This document shows positions 4,347 through 19,639 of a stretch of 36,221 bases of DNA, piece by piece. Each line of letters opens with the position of its first letter. Positions within the stretch are counted from its first letter, which is position 1. The position numbers and the translations under genes were made by a program. The notes beneath the pieces are model-generated. The model searched no databases, was not told where the DNA came from, and saw only the letters and a program-made list of their open reading frames with translations. The DNA is from Sulfurimicrobium sp. (GTDB taxonomy: Bacteria; Pseudomonadota; Gammaproteobacteria; Burkholderiales; Sulfuricellaceae): the NCBI GenBank assembly GCA_030690835.1, contig JAUYFW010000172.1, positions 1 through 36,221 on the forward strand, in the 5' to 3' direction.

Positions 4347-5522
4347 TTAACCGAGTTCCCCGATGGCATGGCGCATCAGCCGATTTTTCAGGCCGCCGAG
4401 ATGGTTGGTCAGGCTCAGGCCCGTATTGCGCAGGGTGCGCAGCAAGGGGTCGGCATTGTTGAAGAGTTTGTGCAGCCCGTCGGTGACCAACTGCATGGCG
4501 AGGATGTCTTCCTTGCGCGCCCGTTCGTAGCGGCGCAGCAGGGAATAATCGCCGCAATCGCGTTGTGCCTCGCGTTGCAGCAGCACCTGGGCGAGCTGCC
4601 AGGCGTCCTTGAAGCCGAGATTGACGCCTTGTCCGGAGAGCGGGTGGACGTTGTGAGCGGCATCGCCGATCAGGGCCACGCGGGGTTTGACCAGGTGCTC
4701 CAGGTTGAGCAGGCGCAGGGAGAAGGCGGCTGGCGGTGTGATCAACTGTAGTGCGCCGAGGGTGTTTTTGCCCGCCTCCTGCACGCGGCGGCAAAATTCA
4801 TCACCCGGCAGTGCCAGCAGCTCCTGCGCCAGTGGTTCATCGGCCGACCAGACGATGGAGATTTTATTGTCCGGCAAGGGCAGGTAAGCCAGGATGCCGT
4901 CTTCGCGGAACCACTGGTAGGCGCAATTGCGGTGCGGTTTCTCGACCGTGAAGTTGGCTACCATGCCCGACTGGCCGTATTCGCGCGGCTGGGCCTCGAT
5001 GCCGGCGTTGGCGCGCACCCAGGATTCGCGTCCATCCGCGCCGACCACCAGCCTGCTGCGCAGCATGCGGCCATCCCGCAAAGTCAGAATGGCGTCGTCG
5101 TCGCTTACTTCCAGCGCGACACAGACAGCAGGGCAAATAATTTCCACATTGGATTGTCCCTGCAACGCCTGCCACAAGCCTTCCTGCACCAGGCGGCTCT
5201 CGGCGATGAAAGCCAGTTCCGCCACGCTGGCCTGGTATGCGGTGAAATCGAGCCGTGCCGCCACATCGTCGCCCCACACGTGCATTTCATGCACCGCTGT
5301 AATACGGCTTTGATCGAGGCCGCTCCACACGCCGCTCTGGTCGAGAAAGCGAGCGTTGGCTGGGTTGATGGCGTAGATGCGGCTGTCCCAGCTATCATCC
5401 TGGGGCAGGGGTGGCGGTGCGCGGCCCTCGATCAATGCCACTTTAAGCCCGCTATCCTTGAGCGCCACGGCGAGCGATGCGCCTACCAGCCCCGCCCCCA
5501 CGATTACGATGTCAAAATTCAT
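4347..5522 (-). CDS. UbiH/UbiF/VisC-type FAD-dependent hydroxylase
   Basis: 391 aa, MNFDIVIVGAGLVGASLAVALKDSGLKVALIEGR and GDAAHNVHPLSGQGVNLGFKDAW. Confidence 0.9.
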   Translation of the reverse strand: MNFDIVIVGAGLVGASLAVALKDSGLKVALIEGRAPPPLPQDDSWDSRIYAINPANARFLDQSGVWSGLDQSRITAVHEMHVWGDDVAARLDFTAYQASVAELAFIAESRLVQEGLWQALQGQSNVEIICPAVCVALEVSDDDAILTLRDGRMLRSRLVVGADGRESWVRANAGIEAQPREYGQSGMVANFTVEKPHRNCAYQWFREDGILAYLPLPDNKISIVWSADEPLAQELLALPGDEFCRRVQEAGKNTLGALQLITPPAAFSLRLLNLEHLVKPRVALIGDAAHNVHPLSGQGVNLGFKDAWQLAQVLLQREAQRDCGDYSLLRRYERARKEDILAMQLVTDGLHKLFNNADPLLRTLRNTGLSLTNHLGGLKNRLMRHAIGELG

Positions 5523-6691
5523 CAGCCTTTTGCTCCGAAAATCATTTTGCGCGCCACCAGGCGTTTCGCCCCCGGCAGCAGGTCCAGCGCCGCCAGCCCG
5601 AGTCCGCGCCCCAGGCCGACGCCCGCATAGTCATTGGAAAACAGCCGCACCAGCAGGTCGGTGAACAGGATGCTGCCGCCGGTGTCGCTACTGCGCCCCT
5701 CTCGGTAGCGTTGCAGCATGGCGGGGTTGCCGACCTCGGCATGGGGGGTGTTGATGATTTGCTCCCCCAGTTCCCAGGCATCGCGCAGGCCGAGATTGAA
5801 ACCCTGCCCCGCCACGGGATGCATGGCCTGGGCCGCGTTGCCGATCAGGGCCATGCGCTGCGCCGTGACCGGGCGGGCATATTTAAGACTCAAGGGAAAG
5901 CTGGCGCGTTTGCCGGCGCTGGTGAATGCGCCGAGGCGATCGCCGAAGCGCTCGTGCAGCTTGGCCAGAAAAGCGTTGTCGTCGAGTTGCAGCAGGCTCT
6001 CCGCTTCATCTGGCCGGGCAGTCCATACCAGGTCGTAACCCGCGCCGGAAGGCAGCAGCGCCATCGGCCCGAAAGGCGTAAAGCGTTCGAAAGCGACATG
6101 GCGCCGCGGCCGTTCCGCCGTGACATGACAGATTACGGCGGTCTGGTCGTAATCCACCACATGCCGCTCCACGCCCGACACTTGGCCCAGGCTGCGCCCG
6201 CCATCGGCAAGCACCAGCAGGCTGGCGGTCACCTCATGGCGTTGCCCAGCATGTTCGAACTCCGCCACGCCGAATCCCGGCGTGGATTTCACGCCGCTTA
6301 CCACGGCGCCGGTCAGATAGAGCGGGTTGGCCTGGCTTAGCGCCTGATGCAGGGCCTGACTCAGCGCGGAGTAATTGACCACATAACCCAGCGCATCCAC
6401 CCCGCTCTCGGCGGCGGTCAGCACCGCACGCCCAAACCCGCCGCGCTGCGAGATGTGAATGGTCTCTATCGGCGTCGCGCCCGCGATGCTGCCCCACACC
6501 CCGAGGCGCTGCAGCAGGATTCTCGCGCCGTAGGACAGGGCCAGGGCGCGGGGGTCGTCCGGGCGTGAAAAATCGTTCCGCGCTTCCAGCACCATCACCT
6601 TGCGGCCGCTGTCCTGCAGTGCCAGGGCTAGGGCTGCGCCCGCCGGCCCGCCGCCGATGATGAGCACGTCCACGTGATTAGGAATTGTCAT
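5522..6691 (-). CDS. ubiH: UbiH-like FAD-dependent hydroxylase; likely start ATG at 6691 (ORF track extends to 6769 through a repeat)
   Basis: MTIPNHVDVLIIGGGPAGAALALALQDSGRKVMVLEAR ... GNAAQAMHPVAGQGFNLGLRDAW. Upstream extension MRAKRSNLALYF...CFVALLLA is repeat-derived translation. Confidence 0.88.
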   Translation of the reverse strand: MTIPNHVDVLIIGGGPAGAALALALQDSGRKVMVLEARNDFSRPDDPRALALSYGARILLQRLGVWGSIAGATPIETIHISQRGGFGRAVLTAAESGVDALGYVVNYSALSQALHQALSQANPLYLTGAVVSGVKSTPGFGVAEFEHAGQRHEVTASLLVLADGGRSLGQVSGVERHVVDYDQTAVICHVTAERPRRHVAFERFTPFGPMALLPSGAGYDLVWTARPDEAESLLQLDDNAFLAKLHERFGDRLGAFTSAGKRASFPLSLKYARPVTAQRMALIGNAAQAMHPVAGQGFNLGLRDAWELGEQIINTPHAEVGNPAMLQRYREGRSSDTGGSILFTDLLVRLFSNDYAGVGLGRGLGLAALDLLPGAKRLVARKMIFGAKG

Positions 6692-6773
6692 TGCGAGGAG
6701 CAAAGCGACGAAGCAATCTTGTTTTTCCGTGGCAAAGTAAAGAGCGAGATTGCTTCGCTTTGCTCGCAATGAC
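6688..6773. repeat. Palindromic repeat copy A (gtcattgcgag...ctcgcaatgac)
   Basis: Imperfect palindrome gtcattgcgaggagcaaagcgacgaagcaatctt...agagcgagattgcttcgctttgctcgcaatgac; same family as 7081-7168 in opposite orientation. Confidence 0.92.
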
Positions 6774-6778
6774 GGGTA

Positions 6779-7069
6779 TTAAATTTCATCATACAAATCT
6801 TTCCAGTTCGGATTGAACCCATTGATCAAATCCAGCTTGTCCTGCCTCGACCCGCCCTTGATCTGTTTTTCACGGCTAATCGCCCCGTAAGCTTCCTCGC
6901 CAGTTTCAAAATATACCAGCTTATGCACGCGGTAGCGTTTGGTGAAGCCTTCATGAACATCCGTTTTATGCTCATATACCCGGCGTTTAAGGTCATTCGT
7001 CACGCCTGTGTAAAGTACCTTGTTGTTTTTATTGGTAAGGATGTAAACGAAGAACTGGCGTGGCATCAC
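6779..7069 (-). CDS. Small GIY-YIG domain nuclease (YhbQ-like); start GTG 7069 or ATG 7066
   Basis: MMPRQFFVYILTNKNNKVLYTGVTNDLKRRVYEHKTDVHEGFTKRYRVHKLVYFETGEEAYGAISREKQIKGGSRQDKLDLINGFNPNWKDLYDEI; motifs YIL...LYTGVTNDLKRRVYEHK, EGFTKRY, REKQIK. Confidence 0.95.
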   Translation of the reverse strand: MMPRQFFVYILTNKNNKVLYTGVTNDLKRRVYEHKTDVHEGFTKRYRVHKLVYFETGEEAYGAISREKQIKGGSRQDKLDLINGFNPNWKDLYDEI

Positions 7070-7080
7070 TCCACCCCGCC

Positions 7081-7168
7081 GTCATTGCGAGCAAAGCGAA
7101 GCAATCTCGCTCTTGCCGGTCAGCGTAAAAGAAACAGATTGCTTCGTCACTGCGTTTCTCGCAATGAC
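7081..7168. repeat. Palindromic repeat copy B, inverted relative to copy A
   Basis: gtcattgcgagcaaagcgaagcaatctcgctctt (7081-7114) is the perfect 34-nt reverse complement of 6740-6773; ends ...agattgcttcgtcactgcgtttctcgcaatgac. Confidence 0.92.
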
Positions 7169-8460
7169 ATTAGAATTTCGATCTCCGCCACTGTCTTCGG
7201 CGCCGCCGCGCTCAGCACCTCGCAGCCGTCTTCCGTCACCACCACATCGTCCTCGATGCGGATGCCGATATTCCAGAAATGATCCGGCACGTTGTCGGCC
7301 GGGCGGATGTAGCAGCCCGGCTCCACGGTCAGCACCATGCCCGGCATGAGCGCCCGCCACTCGCCGCCCTGTTTGTACTCGCCCACGTCGTGCACGTCTA
7401 GCCCCAACCAGTGGCCGGTGCGGTGCATGTAAAACTGCTTGTAGCTTTCCTTTTCCAGCACTTCGTCGAGGCTGCCATGGCACAGGCCAAAATCGATGAA
7501 ACCCTGGGCCAGCACCTTGAGCGCCGCCTCGTGGGGCTGGTTCCAGTGGTTGCCTGGTTTCACGTGGAACACCGCGGCCGTTTGGGCCGCCAGCACCAGC
7601 TCGTACACATCCTTCTGCGCCGCGCTGAATTTTCCGTTGACCGGGAAGGTGCGGGTGATGTCGGCGGCGTAACCGTCCAGCTCGCAGCCGGCGTCGATCA
7701 GCAGCATTTCGCCATCCTTGAGCGGCGCGTCGTTGAACACGTAATGCAGCACGCAGGCATTTGCTCCGCCCGCCACGATGGAGGTATAGGCTGGCGCCTG
7801 GGCGCCGTGGCGGCGGAACTCGTGCAGCAGCTCGGCCTCGATCTCGAATTCGCGCCGGCCTGGCCGCGTTTGCTGCATCGCGCGGATGTGGGCGGCGGCG
7901 GAAATCTTGCCGGCACGGCGCATGGTGGCGATTTCTTCGGCGTCCTTGATGAGGCGCATTTCGTCCAGCAGCGCGCGCACGTCCTGGATCGCGCCCGGCG
8001 CGGTGATGCCGCTGCGCACCTGTTCGCGCACGCTGTTCAGCCAGCCGACGGCGCGGGCATCCCAGGCGCTGTCGGCGCCGAGGTGAAAGAACAGGCTGGG
8101 CTGGTCGGCCAGCAACTTGGGCAGCATTTCGTCGAGCTGGGCGATGGGGTAAGCTTCGTCGAAACCGAATGCCTCCCGTGCGTCGTCCGGGCCGTGGCGG
8201 AAGCCGTCCCAGATTTCGCGTTCGAGGTTTTTTTCGCGGCAGAACAAAATACTCTTGGCCGGATTACCGGCCAGCAGCACCAGCACCGCTTCGGGCTCCA
8301 TAAAGCCGGTAAGATAGTGAAAGTAGCTGTCGAAGCGGTACGGGTAATGGCTATCCCGGTTACGCGCGCGCTCGGGGGCGGTGGGAATGACCGCGACCCC
8401 TGCCCCCATGGCGCCCGCGAGGCGCTGGCGGCGTTGCTGATATACTTGGACGTTGCTCAT
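7147..8460 (-). CDS. pepP: Xaa-Pro aminopeptidase P; likely start ATG 8460
   Basis: MSNVQVYQQRRQRLAGAMGAGVAVIPTAPERARNRDSHYPYRFDSYFHYLTGFMEPEAVLVL ... GGANACVLHYVFND, HRTGHWLGLDVHDVGEY. C-terminus MSLRETQ is encoded inside repeat B. Confidence 0.95.
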   Translation of the reverse strand: MSNVQVYQQRRQRLAGAMGAGVAVIPTAPERARNRDSHYPYRFDSYFHYLTGFMEPEAVLVLLAGNPAKSILFCREKNLEREIWDGFRHGPDDAREAFGFDEAYPIAQLDEMLPKLLADQPSLFFHLGADSAWDARAVGWLNSVREQVRSGITAPGAIQDVRALLDEMRLIKDAEEIATMRRAGKISAAAHIRAMQQTRPGRREFEIEAELLHEFRRHGAQAPAYTSIVAGGANACVLHYVFNDAPLKDGEMLLIDAGCELDGYAADITRTFPVNGKFSAAQKDVYELVLAAQTAAVFHVKPGNHWNQPHEAALKVLAQGFIDFGLCHGSLDEVLEKESYKQFYMHRTGHWLGLDVHDVGEYKQGGEWRALMPGMVLTVEPGCYIRPADNVPDHFWNIGIRIEDDVVVTEDGCEVLSAAAPKTVAEIEILMSLRETQ

Positions 8461-8551
8461 TGCACCAGATTCGATAAATTCATTAACGTGAAACTCGCGA
8501 AGCGAGCCTGCGTCCCTCTCTCCCTCTGGGAGAGAGCAAGGAGTGAGGGAA

Positions 8552-14864: not shown

Positions 14865-15118
14865 GTTGGGGCGTGATCTTTGAACAATCGTATTGCCGCA
14901 TTGGCAGCCGGGCCTATAAACAAGTTACCCGGCATCAGTCCGCCTCGCGCCCCTTGAATGTCCCTGATCTGCCGGTACGGGTAGGGGATGAGTTGGTTTG
15001 ATGGCCGCCGGATAAAACGCAGTCCATGTTTTTTAACCTGCCCCATTACAAAAATCCGGTTGACGATGATGCGACCGGGTATATACTAATAAACTATATT
15101 TCAATAGCCGGGGCCACC

Positions 15119-15352
15119 ATGAAAATCGCAAAACTGTTTCAAAATGGCCAGAGCCAAGCGGTCAGGCTTCCAAAGGAATTCCGCTTCGAGGGCGAAGAGG
15201 TGTTCATCAAAAAAACCGGTAATGTGGTGATGCTGATCCCGATTTTACATTCTTGGGATTCCTTGCTGGGTAGCCTGGATAAATTCACCCCCGATTTCAT
15301 GTCCGAGCGCAACCAGCCGCAACAACAGCCCCGTGAGGATGTTTTTGCATGA
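15119..15352 (+). CDS. vapB: VapB-type (AbrB/MazE fold) antitoxin
   Basis: MKIAKLFQNGQSQAVRLPKEFRFEGEEVFIKKTGNVVMLIP; overlaps the following toxin by ATGA. Confidence 0.9.
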   Translation: MKIAKLFQNGQSQAVRLPKEFRFEGEEVFIKKTGNVVMLIPILHSWDSLLGSLDKFTPDFMSERNQPQQQPREDVFA

Positions 15353-15756
15353 TTGTGATGTTGGACACCAATACCTGCATCGCACTGATCAAACGCAAGC
15401 CGGTTCACGCCTTACAAAAATTCAGTGAATATCAGGTCGGCGACATTGGCATCTCAGCCGTAACGCTGGCAGAGCTACGCTACGGCGTTTCCAAAAGCCA
15501 GCACCAAGCCAGAAATCAGGCGGCACTGGATGAGTTCATGCTGCCACTGGAATTTGCGGCATTCGATGAGCAGGCAACGGTCGCTTATGGGGTACTGCGT
15601 GCGGCGCTGGAAAAACAGGGCACTCCCATAGGCCCGCTGGATACCATGATAGCCGCGCATGCACTAAGTCTGGGCGTAACGCTGGTCACGAATAATACGC
15701 GGGAGTTTAATCGTGTCCCCGCGCTTACGGTCGTTGACTGGATCAAGCACGATTAG
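15349..15756 (+). CDS. vapC: VapC-type PIN domain toxin
   Basis: MIVMLDTNTCIALIKRKP...ISAVTLAELRYGVSKS...GPLDTMIAAHALSLGVTLVTNNTREFNRVPALTVVDW; conserved PIN acidic residues. Confidence 0.94.
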   Translation: MIVMLDTNTCIALIKRKPVHALQKFSEYQVGDIGISAVTLAELRYGVSKSQHQARNQAALDEFMLPLEFAAFDEQATVAYGVLRAALEKQGTPIGPLDTMIAAHALSLGVTLVTNNTREFNRVPALTVVDWIKHD

Positions 15757-15948
15757 CAGTATGTATTTTAATCCCCGTGAGCGAGGCGGGCTTTCAGTGT
15801 GTTGGCGGGACAATCGGGCTACGTCCCCTATATATTGATAATTCTAGATTTCTCAGTTGGCACGTATCTATAACTTGCCGAGCATTAAGCAGGCTGCGGC
15901 ATTCAAGCACTCTCCCAACTGGCGATGAGAAATTTGGATATTTGCGCT

Positions 15949-16377
15949 ATGGTCGACAGGCTCACTACTGAGCAACGGAGTTATCTAATGGCTCGCATAA
16001 GGGGCCGCGATACTGATCTTGAAATTTTGGTAAGGCGCAAATTATGGGCCAAAGGACTACGTTTCCGCTTAGGCCGAACAATGCCTCTGCCAGGAAAACC
16101 TGATTTGGTTTTCGTTGGGCCACGAGTAGCCGTGTTTGTCGATGGCTGCTTTTGGCATGGCTGTCCGTCCCACGGCCATATCCCAAAATCCAACACAACT
16201 TATTGGCAGAAGAAATTGATGAATAACATAGCAAGGGACAAATGGACGGATAGCAAACTCATCCACCTTGGGTGGCTACCTGTACGGCTATGGGAACATG
16301 AAATCAAGGAAAATGTGGACGACTGTGTGAAACGAGTTACAGAAGCCCTGAGTCTGCGCAGGGCCACACGGAAATAA
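15949..16377 (+). CDS. vsr: Very short patch repair endonuclease (alternative start 15925)
   Basis: MVDRLTTEQRSYLMARIRGRDTDLEILVRRKLWAKGLRFRL...LPGKPDLVFVGPRVAVFVDGCFWHGCPSHGHIPKSNTTYWQKKL. Confidence 0.95.
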   Translation: MVDRLTTEQRSYLMARIRGRDTDLEILVRRKLWAKGLRFRLGRTMPLPGKPDLVFVGPRVAVFVDGCFWHGCPSHGHIPKSNTTYWQKKLMNNIARDKWTDSKLIHLGWLPVRLWEHEIKENVDDCVKRVTEALSLRRATRK

Positions 16378-16398
16378 TTGGGGAAAGAGCAAAGAGCT

Positions 16399-17343
16399 AT
16401 GCCAACAGCGGTCTCATTGTTTTCAGGGTGCGGCGGGTCGGACGCAGGAGTGGTGTCGGCTGGATTTGAGGTGCTCATGGCCAATGACCTTCTACCTTAC
16501 GCCCGTGATGTGTATATGGCTAACCATCCAAACACCGAGTATGTGGTAGGTGATGTTGCCAAAATCGAAAAATTTCCGGCGGCAGAGTTGCTAGTGGGAT
16601 GTTATCCCTGCCAGGGGTTTAGCCAGGGGGGGGTGCGGGACTCATCCAGGAAGATAAATACCCTCTATTTGGAATTTGCGCGGGCATTGCGGGCTATCCA
16701 GCCCAAGGCTTTTATTGTTGAAAATGTTTCTGGCATGGTGAGGAAAAATTTTGCCCATCTGCTGGAGGATCAGTTCCGCGTCTTCCGCGAGGCTGGTTAC
16801 AGTGTCAAGGCGGATGTACTCAATGCGGTTGATTACGGCGTGGCGCAGGAACGCAAGCGCATTTTCATTGTCGGTGTGCGCAATGATCTGGGCTTGGAAT
16901 ATCAGTTTCCCCATCCGACCCACGGCAGTGGCGGAGCGGCTGCCCCCCTTTCTATCCGGGATGCGATTGGCGATATGCCGGAATGGCCGGAAGGAGAGTT
17001 TTACGACCGGGATTTCCACTGGTACTACCTCTCGCGGGATCGTCGCCGAGGCTGGGAACAGCCTTCCAAAACCATTGTGGCAAACCCGCGCCATATGCCA
17101 TTGCACCCAATGAGCCCGCCGCTCAAGAAACTGGAACACAACGTCTGGCAGTTTCAGACGGACTCCCCGGCGCGGCGCTTCAGCTATCGGGAAGCAGCGC
17201 GATTGCAGGGATTTTCCCGCGATTTTGTTTTTCCTGATACTGAGCGCGGCAGCCTGGATATGCGCTATAAGGTGGCGGGCAACGCTGTGCCGCCGCCGTT
17301 ATTTGAGGCGGTGGCACGAGCGCTGCCGGATGTGTGGGATTAA
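16399..17343 (+). CDS. dcm: DNA (cytosine-5-)-methyltransferase
   Basis: AVSLFSGCGGSDAGVVSAGFEVLMANDL (motif I), GCYPCQGFSQGG (motif IV PCQ), FIVENVSGM (ENV), QERKRIFIVGVRND, RRFSYREAARLQGFSRDFVF, KVAGNAVPPPL. Confidence 0.95.
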   Translation: MPTAVSLFSGCGGSDAGVVSAGFEVLMANDLLPYARDVYMANHPNTEYVVGDVAKIEKFPAAELLVGCYPCQGFSQGGVRDSSRKINTLYLEFARALRAIQPKAFIVENVSGMVRKNFAHLLEDQFRVFREAGYSVKADVLNAVDYGVAQERKRIFIVGVRNDLGLEYQFPHPTHGSGGAAAPLSIRDAIGDMPEWPEGEFYDRDFHWYYLSRDRRRGWEQPSKTIVANPRHMPLHPMSPPLKKLEHNVWQFQTDSPARRFSYREAARLQGFSRDFVFPDTERGSLDMRYKVAGNAVPPPLFEAVARALPDVWD

Positions 17344-17629: not shown

Positions 17630-18547
17630 TTATGCGTAGTTCAGCACCGAAACTTCAGACAGCAGAGGGAGTGCCGGTAGCGATTCATGCAACGCGTACT
17701 GGGTGGCTAGGCGAACCAGCCTCAGCCGATCGACAATAATAGCCTGCCCGATGTCGTTCTCGTGAGCCCAGTCTCCGTCAGGATGGCGAAGGTCTAAGGG
17801 CAGGAAGTAGTAGCATGCCCACGGGTGCATGACCGGCAGATGGTGGTAATGTTTGGCGGGTGAGGCTTCGAGTTGTTTGAAGCGCCAGTCGCTTTTGGAG
17901 CAGCCACATTGGGCAAATGAAATGGGCATGCCCTTGCGTTCATCCGCCATCGGATGCCATGAGATCAGGTCAATGCCACCGTCTCCGGAGTCGCTCCGGA
18001 TGAAGTCGCGTTCCTTGAAGTTCGCGGTGCAGCGCAAGTCTGCGGCAACTTGGCACATTTTTTGGTAAAGAGTGCCTTGGTAGAGGGCATTATTCCCCGC
18101 ATTGGCCCAAGTGGCACGGATTTCAGCCCCATCTGGCATCAGCTTGGTGAATATTGCAAAGCAGGTTTCTTCAAAATTCCTGGCAAGGTCGGTGCGCCGA
18201 TTGCCTGGTATATGCCGCATCAACGCAGCCAGCAGCAAGTGCAAATAGGTGGTTTGTTTTGGCGTTCCGTCGTTACGCAGTTCCAGAGTGTCTTCATCGT
18301 CGGAAACAGCGAACGGATAGCTGTCGCCAAATTCATGACGCCGGACACCAGCAAAGTTAATGAGGTCACGCCAGCGCGATTCAGCCGCAAAGCCCTGACC
18401 GCGGGTGTCACGCATCCGGCGTTCCAGACCTGAAAGATCGCCCCGCGAGAAGCAGCGATCCGGATGAATCAGTGCCCGCAATTCGACGTAGTCTGTCCAG
18501 AGCAGCGGCGCCGTGCTGCCGGGAACGCTTTCCAGAGCTTCCAGCAT
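17630..18547 (-). CDS. Uncharacterised protein, possible PD-(D/E)XK-like restriction nuclease
   Basis: 305 aa; DFIRSDSGDGGIDLISWHPMADERKGMPISFAQCGCSKSDW resembles a D-GGIDLI...(E/Q) nuclease core. Starts 3 bp after the ParB-like gene stop. Family call is inference. Confidence 0.6.
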   Translation of the reverse strand: MLEALESVPGSTAPLLWTDYVELRALIHPDRCFSRGDLSGLERRMRDTRGQGFAAESRWRDLINFAGVRRHEFGDSYPFAVSDDEDTLELRNDGTPKQTTYLHLLLAALMRHIPGNRRTDLARNFEETCFAIFTKLMPDGAEIRATWANAGNNALYQGTLYQKMCQVAADLRCTANFKERDFIRSDSGDGGIDLISWHPMADERKGMPISFAQCGCSKSDWRFKQLEASPAKHYHHLPVMHPWACYYFLPLDLRHPDGDWAHENDIGQAIIVDRLRLVRLATQYALHESLPALPLLSEVSVLNYA

Positions 18548-18550
18548 GCT

Positions 18551-19639
18551 TTAGTCCTCCAGCTTTTCGCGCAGGTAGCTGCGAATTGAGCGGGAGTCTT
18601 CCGACAGGGTTTCAGCAAGTTCGAGGTGTTTTGTGGTGAGAGGTTTGGTTTTTGGAAGCATATTCCAGGCGAATCTTACGCGTTCGGAGGCGAGTTCCAG
18701 CGCCTTTTCCAATGCTACTTGTGGACCTTCGCTATATAGGTAGGCTTCGCTCAACTTGCCGGTTTCTTCCAGCATCTGCACGGACTCAGGGCTGCTAACG
18801 ACTTCGGCTAATTGATCCAGATTGCGGGATTCTCCGATGATCGTCCGTCCCTGAGCGTTCTTGGAAAACATCCATGCGAAGGCGCGTTTCAGGTTGCCTG
18901 TGTCAAGGCCGGGCATGTCGATATCGGTGCGCCCTTCTAACCCCAGCCAGTCGGTGATTTTGCTGTAGCTGAGAGCGGTCGTAAGGTAGGAGAACTCAAC
19001 ATCCTTGGCTTGTATCGGCAGGCCAAAAAAATTGGCTTCATCAGCGTGGATGTATAACGACAAGGCGGTAAGCAATTGCGCGACGTAATCAGAACGGCTG
19101 CCGATGTCCCTTGCCAGGGATTTCATCTGTTCGGGCTGTGAAAGTTCTGGGTAGAATTCGCGGCGGATGTCGGCCAAATATTTGGCTTTGGATAAAGCAT
19201 CCCATTCCCTGATACCGGTAATGTGCCGGTAGCCGAGGTAGCGCATGATTTCGCGACGGGATGAGTAAAGGATGCAGGGGAGTTCAGTAGGGGCGTCTTC
19301 AATGGCCTCGGCGCGGATTTGGGCAACGCTGGCGCCACGCCGGGCCGGGGGCAGGATTTGTTGGTTGAGCAACTTAACGGCAGCGAGGCGGCGATTCCCT
19401 TCGACGACGACATATTCCCCGTTTTCTTCCGTTACCAACAAGGGTTCACCCTCAAAATAGCCTTTCTGGCCAATGGATCGCATTAAGTCCTGAGCGCCTT
19501 CGTCGTCGAGCATTTCTTCAATGACGTCAGGTACGGAGTGGGCATTATTCAACCGGTAAAAGCGAGGATTCTCCGGATCGAAATTCAGGCTTGAGGTGGC
19601 AATTCGGACGACTTGATTCGGATTTTTTTGCATTGCCAT
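18551..19639 (-). CDS. ParB N-terminal-domain-like protein
   Basis: MAMQKNPNQVVRIATSSLNFDPENPRFYRLN...SIGQKGYFEGEPLLVTEENGEYVVVEGNRRLAAVKLLN; ParB/Srx-like EGNRRLAA motif. Confidence 0.85.
   Translation of the reverse strand: MAMQKNPNQVVRIATSSLNFDPENPRFYRLNNAHSVPDVIEEMLDDEGAQDLMRSIGQKGYFEGEPLLVTEENGEYVVVEGNRRLAAVKLLNQQILPPARRGASVAQIRAEAIEDAPTELPCILYSSRREIMRYLGYRHITGIREWDALSKAKYLADIRREFYPELSQPEQMKSLARDIGSRSDYVAQLLTALSLYIHADEANFFGLPIQAKDVEFSYLTTALSYSKITDWLGLEGRTDIDMPGLDTGNLKRAFAWMFSKNAQGRTIIGESRNLDQLAEVVSSPESVQMLEETGKLSEAYLYSEGPQVALEKALELASERVRFAWNMLPKTKPLTTKHLELAETLSEDSRSIRSYLREKLED

Follow-up and report, generated by a model that had tools for sequence, protein, structure and literature searches.

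In Neisseria, the site-specific GIY-YIG nuclease Ssn reportedly cuts single-stranded DNA at its repeat and affects transformation, and many homologues are said to have been noted. In the RAYT/REPIN systems, one dedicated enzyme of the single-strand DNA type, an HUH/Y1 transposase, is encoded by a gene flanked by a palindromic repeat (GTAG REPs), which is scattered over the genome as dimers. The CGTC REPs are widespread dispersed bacterial repeats, including dRS3 and Rickettsia RPE-4/6, for which no dedicated enzyme was described and no flanked transposase was found (Di Nocera 2013, PMC3733652).

Here, we analysed a window of 36,221 nucleotides from Sulfurimicrobium sp., in which a GIY-YIG nuclease gene lies between REP dimers. 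The host genome is designated G000; other G numbers denote comparison genomes, and L numbers denote homologue loci. The features of the locus are as follows.

5522..6689, minus strand: ubiH, host flanking gene (NCBIfam UbiH, 363 bits)
6687..7168, no strand: REP dimer–nuclease–REP dimer unit of 482 bp, inserted between pepP and ubiH; present in G000 and G018
6687..6773, no strand: REP dimer downstream of the nuclease gene, inverted relative to the upstream dimer
6779..7069, minus strand: GIY-YIG nuclease gene, 95-96 aa, with a Pfam GIY-YIG match
7081..7168, no strand: REP dimer (REPIN-like) upstream of the nuclease gene, with arms GTCATTGCGAGCAAAGCGAAGCAATCT and GTCATTGCGAGAAACGCAGTGACGAAGCAATCT head to head
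7147..8466, minus strand: pepP, Xaa-Pro aminopeptidase, host flanking gene (NCBIfam NF008131, 473 bits; cutoff 465)

Elsewhere in the window, a Vsr endonuclease adjoins a C5 cytosine methylase (15925-17343, plus strand, and 17630-19639, minus strand). Together with a convergent ORF that belongs to no known family and a protein hit by the PD-Lambda-5_A / PDC-M38A models, they make up a candidate restriction/defence cluster. A MazE-like antitoxin and PIN toxin pair of the VapBC type is located at 15026-15756 (plus strand).

The ORF at 6779-7069 matched PF01541 (57.6 bits, E = 1.5e-15), and both its assignment as a GIY-YIG gene and its coordinates were correct in the original prediction. Its start codon is GTG at 7069 or, more likely, ATG at 7066, as in the G018 orthologue. 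The catalytic set is intact (Y9, Y20, G22, R30, H34, E67, and N86), and Y9, Y20, G22, R30, E67, and N86 are invariant columns among 62 relatives, which places the protein in the GIY-YIG superfamily, characterized by the GIY...YIG core and the catalytic Arg, Glu, and Asn. The fold and catalytic residues are common to UPF0213/YhbQ (PDB 1zg2), the UvrC N-domain, and Slx1. In the AlphaFold model (pLDDT 93), residues 72-77 (GGSRQD, including R75) are located at the turn between helices 60-72 and 75-85 and at the start of the second helix, flanked by the conserved K71 and K78 and shortly C-terminal to the catalytic E67; this segment is the putative REP-reading part. A PADLOC run on the nuclease gave no match, and PHROGs gave weak matches only.

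The inverted repeat copies predicted on both sides of the gene are present at 6687-6773 and 7081-7168, as two mutually inverted, hairpin-forming elements of 87 and 88 bp. Their inner inverted arms (6740-6775 and 7079-7114) are 100% complementary, as predicted, although over 36 nt rather than 34 nt. Each copy had been described as an imperfect palindrome. The elements do fold on themselves as single-stranded DNA (-26.6 and -24.0 kcal/mol; z = -6.1 and -5.7), but each is a REPIN-like, head-to-head dimer of a ~27-nt and a ~33-nt arm and not one palindrome. Single arms do not fold strongly (z = -0.01 and 0.83), with 5 bp plus 2 bp in the monomer, and the long stem is formed by the dimer only.

The half-site GTCATTGCGAG occurs four times in the window, all in these two elements. 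In the host genome, a draft of 374 contigs with 6.4% contamination, there are 46 exact half-sites (23+23; 0 for the reversed control pattern) and 16 exact REP dimers. The base preceding GTC at the dimer starts listed is C, T, or G (G in 2/12), and the tag is thus mostly CGTC or TGTC. The host repeat accordingly resembles the CGTC-tagged REPs (PMC3733652) in its terminal CGTC tag, often TGTC, the AT at the first stem positions, hairpin formation, an intergenic location, and its occurrence mostly as head-to-head heterodimers. In contrast, the monomer does not form the perfect 8-9 bp stem with a 4-5 nt loop, its stem being weaker (5 bp plus imperfect), the core is not named there, and a GIY-YIG nuclease is associated here, whereas no dedicated enzyme is described there. 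An Rfam search of the window gave no match, and a literature search with the letters of the repeat returned only matches that look like primer listings.

The pepP–ubiH locus was retrieved via PepP from eight genus members. The ~480-bp discrete unit proposed originally was borne out: the 482-bp unit occupies the junction in 2/8 (G000 and G018), whereas in G015, G016, G017, G019, G020, and G021, pepP directly adjoins or overlaps ubiH at a clean junction that contains neither REP nor nuclease. Since the empty sites carry no REP, the REPs and the gene apparently arrived together at this locus. The REP end supplies the ubiH start codon (6687-6689, caATGac), and the REP also encodes the C-terminal residues MSLRETQ of pepP (7147-7168); with its ends taken over in this way, the insertion of the repeat rewrote both gene ends. 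Between G000 and G018, 14/33 four-fold sites differ in the nuclease gene (0.42) and 83/191 in pepP (0.43), with protein identities of 93% and 84%, respectively. In the pepP tree, constructed without G017, G000 groups with G016/G019 and G018 with G020/G015. The silent divergence and this tree suggest that the unit has long been at this site and was either lost on two or more occasions or exchanged by recombination, and the silent-site rate, being the same as that of pepP, gives no sign of recent movement of the unit within the genus. A recent horizontal gain at this locus is, for the same reason, unsupported.

The association of the gene with the repeat extends well beyond this locus. The 80 best relatives (one genome per species, 55-93% identity) come from genera of Cyanobacteria and also from Chloroflexi, Nitrospirae, Aminicenantes, Ignavibacteria, WOR-3, Elusimicrobia, Omnitrophica, Brocadia, and others. 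When half-sites were counted at up to 1 mismatch and within 300 bp of the gene, GTCATTGCGAG was present on both sides in 61 of the 72 relatives whose flanks were complete (the G018 orthologue was not counted), compared with at most 3/72 for 20 permuted motifs; a looser figure of 78/80, allowing 2 mismatches, is superseded by this controlled count. Unflanked homologues, named originally as evidence against a nuclease–repeat unit, are clearly not what was found. The half-site density was 6.66/kb near the genes and 0.19/kb beyond 1 kb, a 35-fold local enrichment. In 38/80 relatives, the nearest arms are oriented head to head around the gene, placing it inside a single dimer, and two loci (L121 and L127) are without GTCATTGCGAG. 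Because this set was chosen by similarity, the uniformity of its REP type is in part due to shared ancestry, and a class-wide set with controls provides a fairer test.

Proteins from 274 genomes of the window's class were scored against the window protein. The scores were bimodal, with the subfamily at 74 bits or above and YhbQ-like proteins at 62 bits or below. CGTC-type hairpins, scanned for as GTC followed by an AT-hairpin, lie beside 52/68 subfamily loci (in 37 cases on either side of the gene) and 0/40 YhbQ-like GIY-YIG loci, whereas eleven alternative heads give at most 9/68. At 16/68 subfamily loci, the flank scan found no CGTC-type REP, and none was found in the surroundings of the S. 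meliloti pSymB nuclease gene; in Azospirillum lipoferum, the gene is located between sufB and sufC, and CGTC REPs flank it on either side. A search for phage carriage returned only matches of 36-42% identity and of the YhbQ-like kind, and the one examined locus is without REPs.

The REP type covaries with the enzyme. The cores across the subfamily are CCCGC, CCGGC, GCGAG, TTCGA, CTGA, and CCTGC, and the other CGTC-tagged REPs of the wider subfamily include GTCATTCCCGC and GTCATTCCGGC. On a tree of 146 proteins, poorly resolved over its 96 columns, the REP type changes 16 times (110 labelled loci), compared with a mean of 37.7 and a minimum of 34 after shuffling; for the class loci alone, the numbers are 13 and 28.5. 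The columns that best separate the GCGAG type from the CC types are 72, 73, 74, and 77, reading K(G/A)GSRxxK and KKWxRxWK, respectively. A relative with CTGA-type REPs on the Planktothrix agardhii plasmid p1 (L255) has an MmeI-type restriction enzyme on one side and the DISARM gene drmA on the other.

The N. gonorrhoeae homologue, which we take to be Ssn, the site-specific single-strand GIY-YIG nuclease, is 46% identical over residues 5-96 (96% of the query). The homology thus extends beyond the GIY-YIG core, including the C-terminal N..W.DL motif, and both proteins are small and have a cognate repeat that is dispersed in the host genome and placed around the gene, as the 46 half-sites and the 61/72 relatives document for the window's type. 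The Neisseria gene is embedded in GTCATTCCCGCG...GCGGGAATC repeats, which match dRS3, named CGTC-1 by Di Nocera 2013 (PMC3733652). In contrast, the window repeat has the core GCGAG instead of CCCGC and forms dimers with 27/33-nt arms, and the loop of the window enzyme reads KGGSRxxK where that of the Neisseria enzyme reads KKWNRAWK. As proposed in the original prediction, the window protein is thus related to the Neisseria nuclease and is paired with another repeat family. Two 2.17 Mb N. gonorrhoeae records filed as plasmids (NZ_CP119140.1 and NZ_CP119142.1) are, in view of their size, probably chromosomes. Another GIY-YIG clade, 40-42% identical, occurs in the congeners G017, G015, and G018 (L037, L038, and L051), with inverted copies of GGCTGAGCGNAGCCGAAGCC nearby; the inverted repeat at L051, as at L037 and L038, is of the GGCTGAGCG type, unlike the window REP, and this clade possibly represents a second nuclease–repeat pairing.

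Whether repeat numbers track the presence of the nuclease was a check proposed originally, and across genomes they do so significantly, with exceptions. In the window's class, GCGAG dimers were present in 17/58 subfamily-positive and 9/216 negative genomes (odds ratio 9.5, p = 3e-7), at least two of them in 14/58 and 2/216, and CCCGC hairpins in 26/58 and 27/216, respectively. GCGAG dimers occur in 7/9 genomes with a GCGAG-flanked nuclease; the genomes with a CCCGC-flanked nuclease have CCCGC hairpins in 9/9, and 8/9 are without a GCGAG dimer. In the set of 80, 42 of 43 nuclease-bearing genomes, which were picked by their nuclease, contain the half-site (median 35 copies; control 0-5). Among 100 genomes from the class to which the Anaerolineales MAG G307 belongs, at least 10 half-sites were found in 10/13 nuclease-positive and 20/87 negative genomes (odds ratio 11, p = 2.5e-4). 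On the other hand, the subfamily nuclease was not detected in the single-contig genome G101 (34 exact GCGAG dimers), in G408 (819 half-sites), or in the repeat-rich G427 and G400, so that abundance of the repeat outside the nuclease clade, originally named as counter-evidence, is found in part, with the association still significant. MAGs may lose repeat-bounded genes; single-contig G101 argues for real nuclease loss or another mover. A congener of G101, G226, has a CCGGC-flanked nuclease (L208). Genome-wide, the relation is strong, not obligatory (odds ratio ~10).

In G116, there are three copies of the subfamily nuclease, 92-98% identical as proteins, and two pairs of them share units of 356-406 bp, comprising the gene and adjacent REP, that are 95-96% identical in different surroundings.

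These data bear differently on the explanations that can be offered. A chance arrangement, or a misassembly in a repeat-rich region, might be suspected from the draft and partly contaminated host assembly, but it is refuted by the 482-bp unit at the identical junction in the independent MAG G018 and by the permuted-motif (at most 3/72) and YhbQ-like (0/40) controls, and its probability is practically nil. It is also very improbable that the REPs are moved by a RAYT or other Y1 transposase, the GIY-YIG gene being incidental. The host genome does have 11 Y1_Tnp matches, yet the motif at 0-1 mismatch is in the ~1.5 kb flanks of none of these 11 genes, so that no HUH/Y1 transposase adjoining the REP was found there and a RAYT is largely refuted as the mobiliser in G000; the subfamily-specific flanking would stay unexplained, and a CGTC-REP-flanked transposase was likewise not found by Di Nocera 2013 (PMC3733652). 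The window system shares the layout of RAYT/REPIN but differs from it in its GIY-YIG enzyme, its CGTC tag, and its occurrence across phyla, apparently the result of horizontal transfer.

Two further readings grant the nuclease a role at the REPs. It is possible, though doubtful, that the enzyme polices incoming or replicating DNA, for example limiting transformation, at REPs whose main role would be that of self-markers or fragile sites, with no mobility involved. The reported role of Neisseria Ssn in transformation is consistent with this, as is purifying selection on the residues (93% amino acid identity, against 84% for pepP, whose silent divergence is equal), whereas the patchiness within the genus (2/8), the scatter over phyla, and the duplicated units look like a mobile element. 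Rather unlikely, in our view, is that the REPs spread otherwise, with the nuclease gene as a homing-like passenger cutting REPs and inserting beside them, the repeat being its target and landing site and not its progeny. The abundance of repeats in genomes with no detectable nuclease and the gene's position inside a single dimer at 38/80 loci, as if inserted there, favour such a passenger. However, the empty sites at the window locus are without REP, the REP type covaries with the protein clade across phyla, and the G116 copies bring their REP along. The nuclease also resembles GIY-YIG homing endonucleases as a putatively site-specific nuclease encoded by a mobile gene, but it has no DNA-binding extension, and its sites flank the gene intact; a site interrupted by the gene and intact in empty alleles, as in homing, was not seen, the empty alleles being without REPs.

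An Ssn-type GIY-YIG nuclease with its cognate CGTC-tagged REP is, judging from these comparisons, the likely explanation. The near-constant adjacency in many phyla and the change of the repeat sequence with the enzyme make the REP the very probable target that the nuclease recognises and cuts, in line with the original prediction. The REP (CGTC + ATTGCGAG...GCAATCT), scattered in the genome mostly as head-to-head dimers, would form long hairpins when single-stranded. The nuclease would recognise a REP arm, probably exposed as single-stranded or hairpin DNA on the lagging strand or in incoming DNA, with residues ~72-77 reading the variable stem bases, and would cut close to the CGTC tag, after which repair could lead to deletion, copying, or exchange of REP-bounded DNA. 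To our knowledge, neither ligase nor integrase activity is provided by the GIY-YIG fold alone, and spread would therefore need host repair. By analogy with RAYT and REPINs, the autonomous unit would be the REP-flanked gene, from which the dimers without a gene would derive as non-autonomous forms.

The nuclease is thus a candidate for the "missing dedicated enzyme" of the CGTC REPs (Di Nocera 2013, PMC3733652). The covariation between REP core and loop, and the tie to the CGTC REPs as a class, may be partly contained in the work on Ssn already. We tentatively propose, at somewhat less than even odds, that CGTC REPs and small GIY-YIG nucleases across phyla constitute an autonomous/non-autonomous mobile pair parallel to RAYT/REPIN, with a readable code in which residues 72-77 match the variable stem bases. 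Such a specificity code might find use in single-strand DNA tools. For the CGTC REPs, the physical tie of the subfamily to the repeats, together with the covariation, names a candidate enzyme and provides a direct, testable code of specificity.
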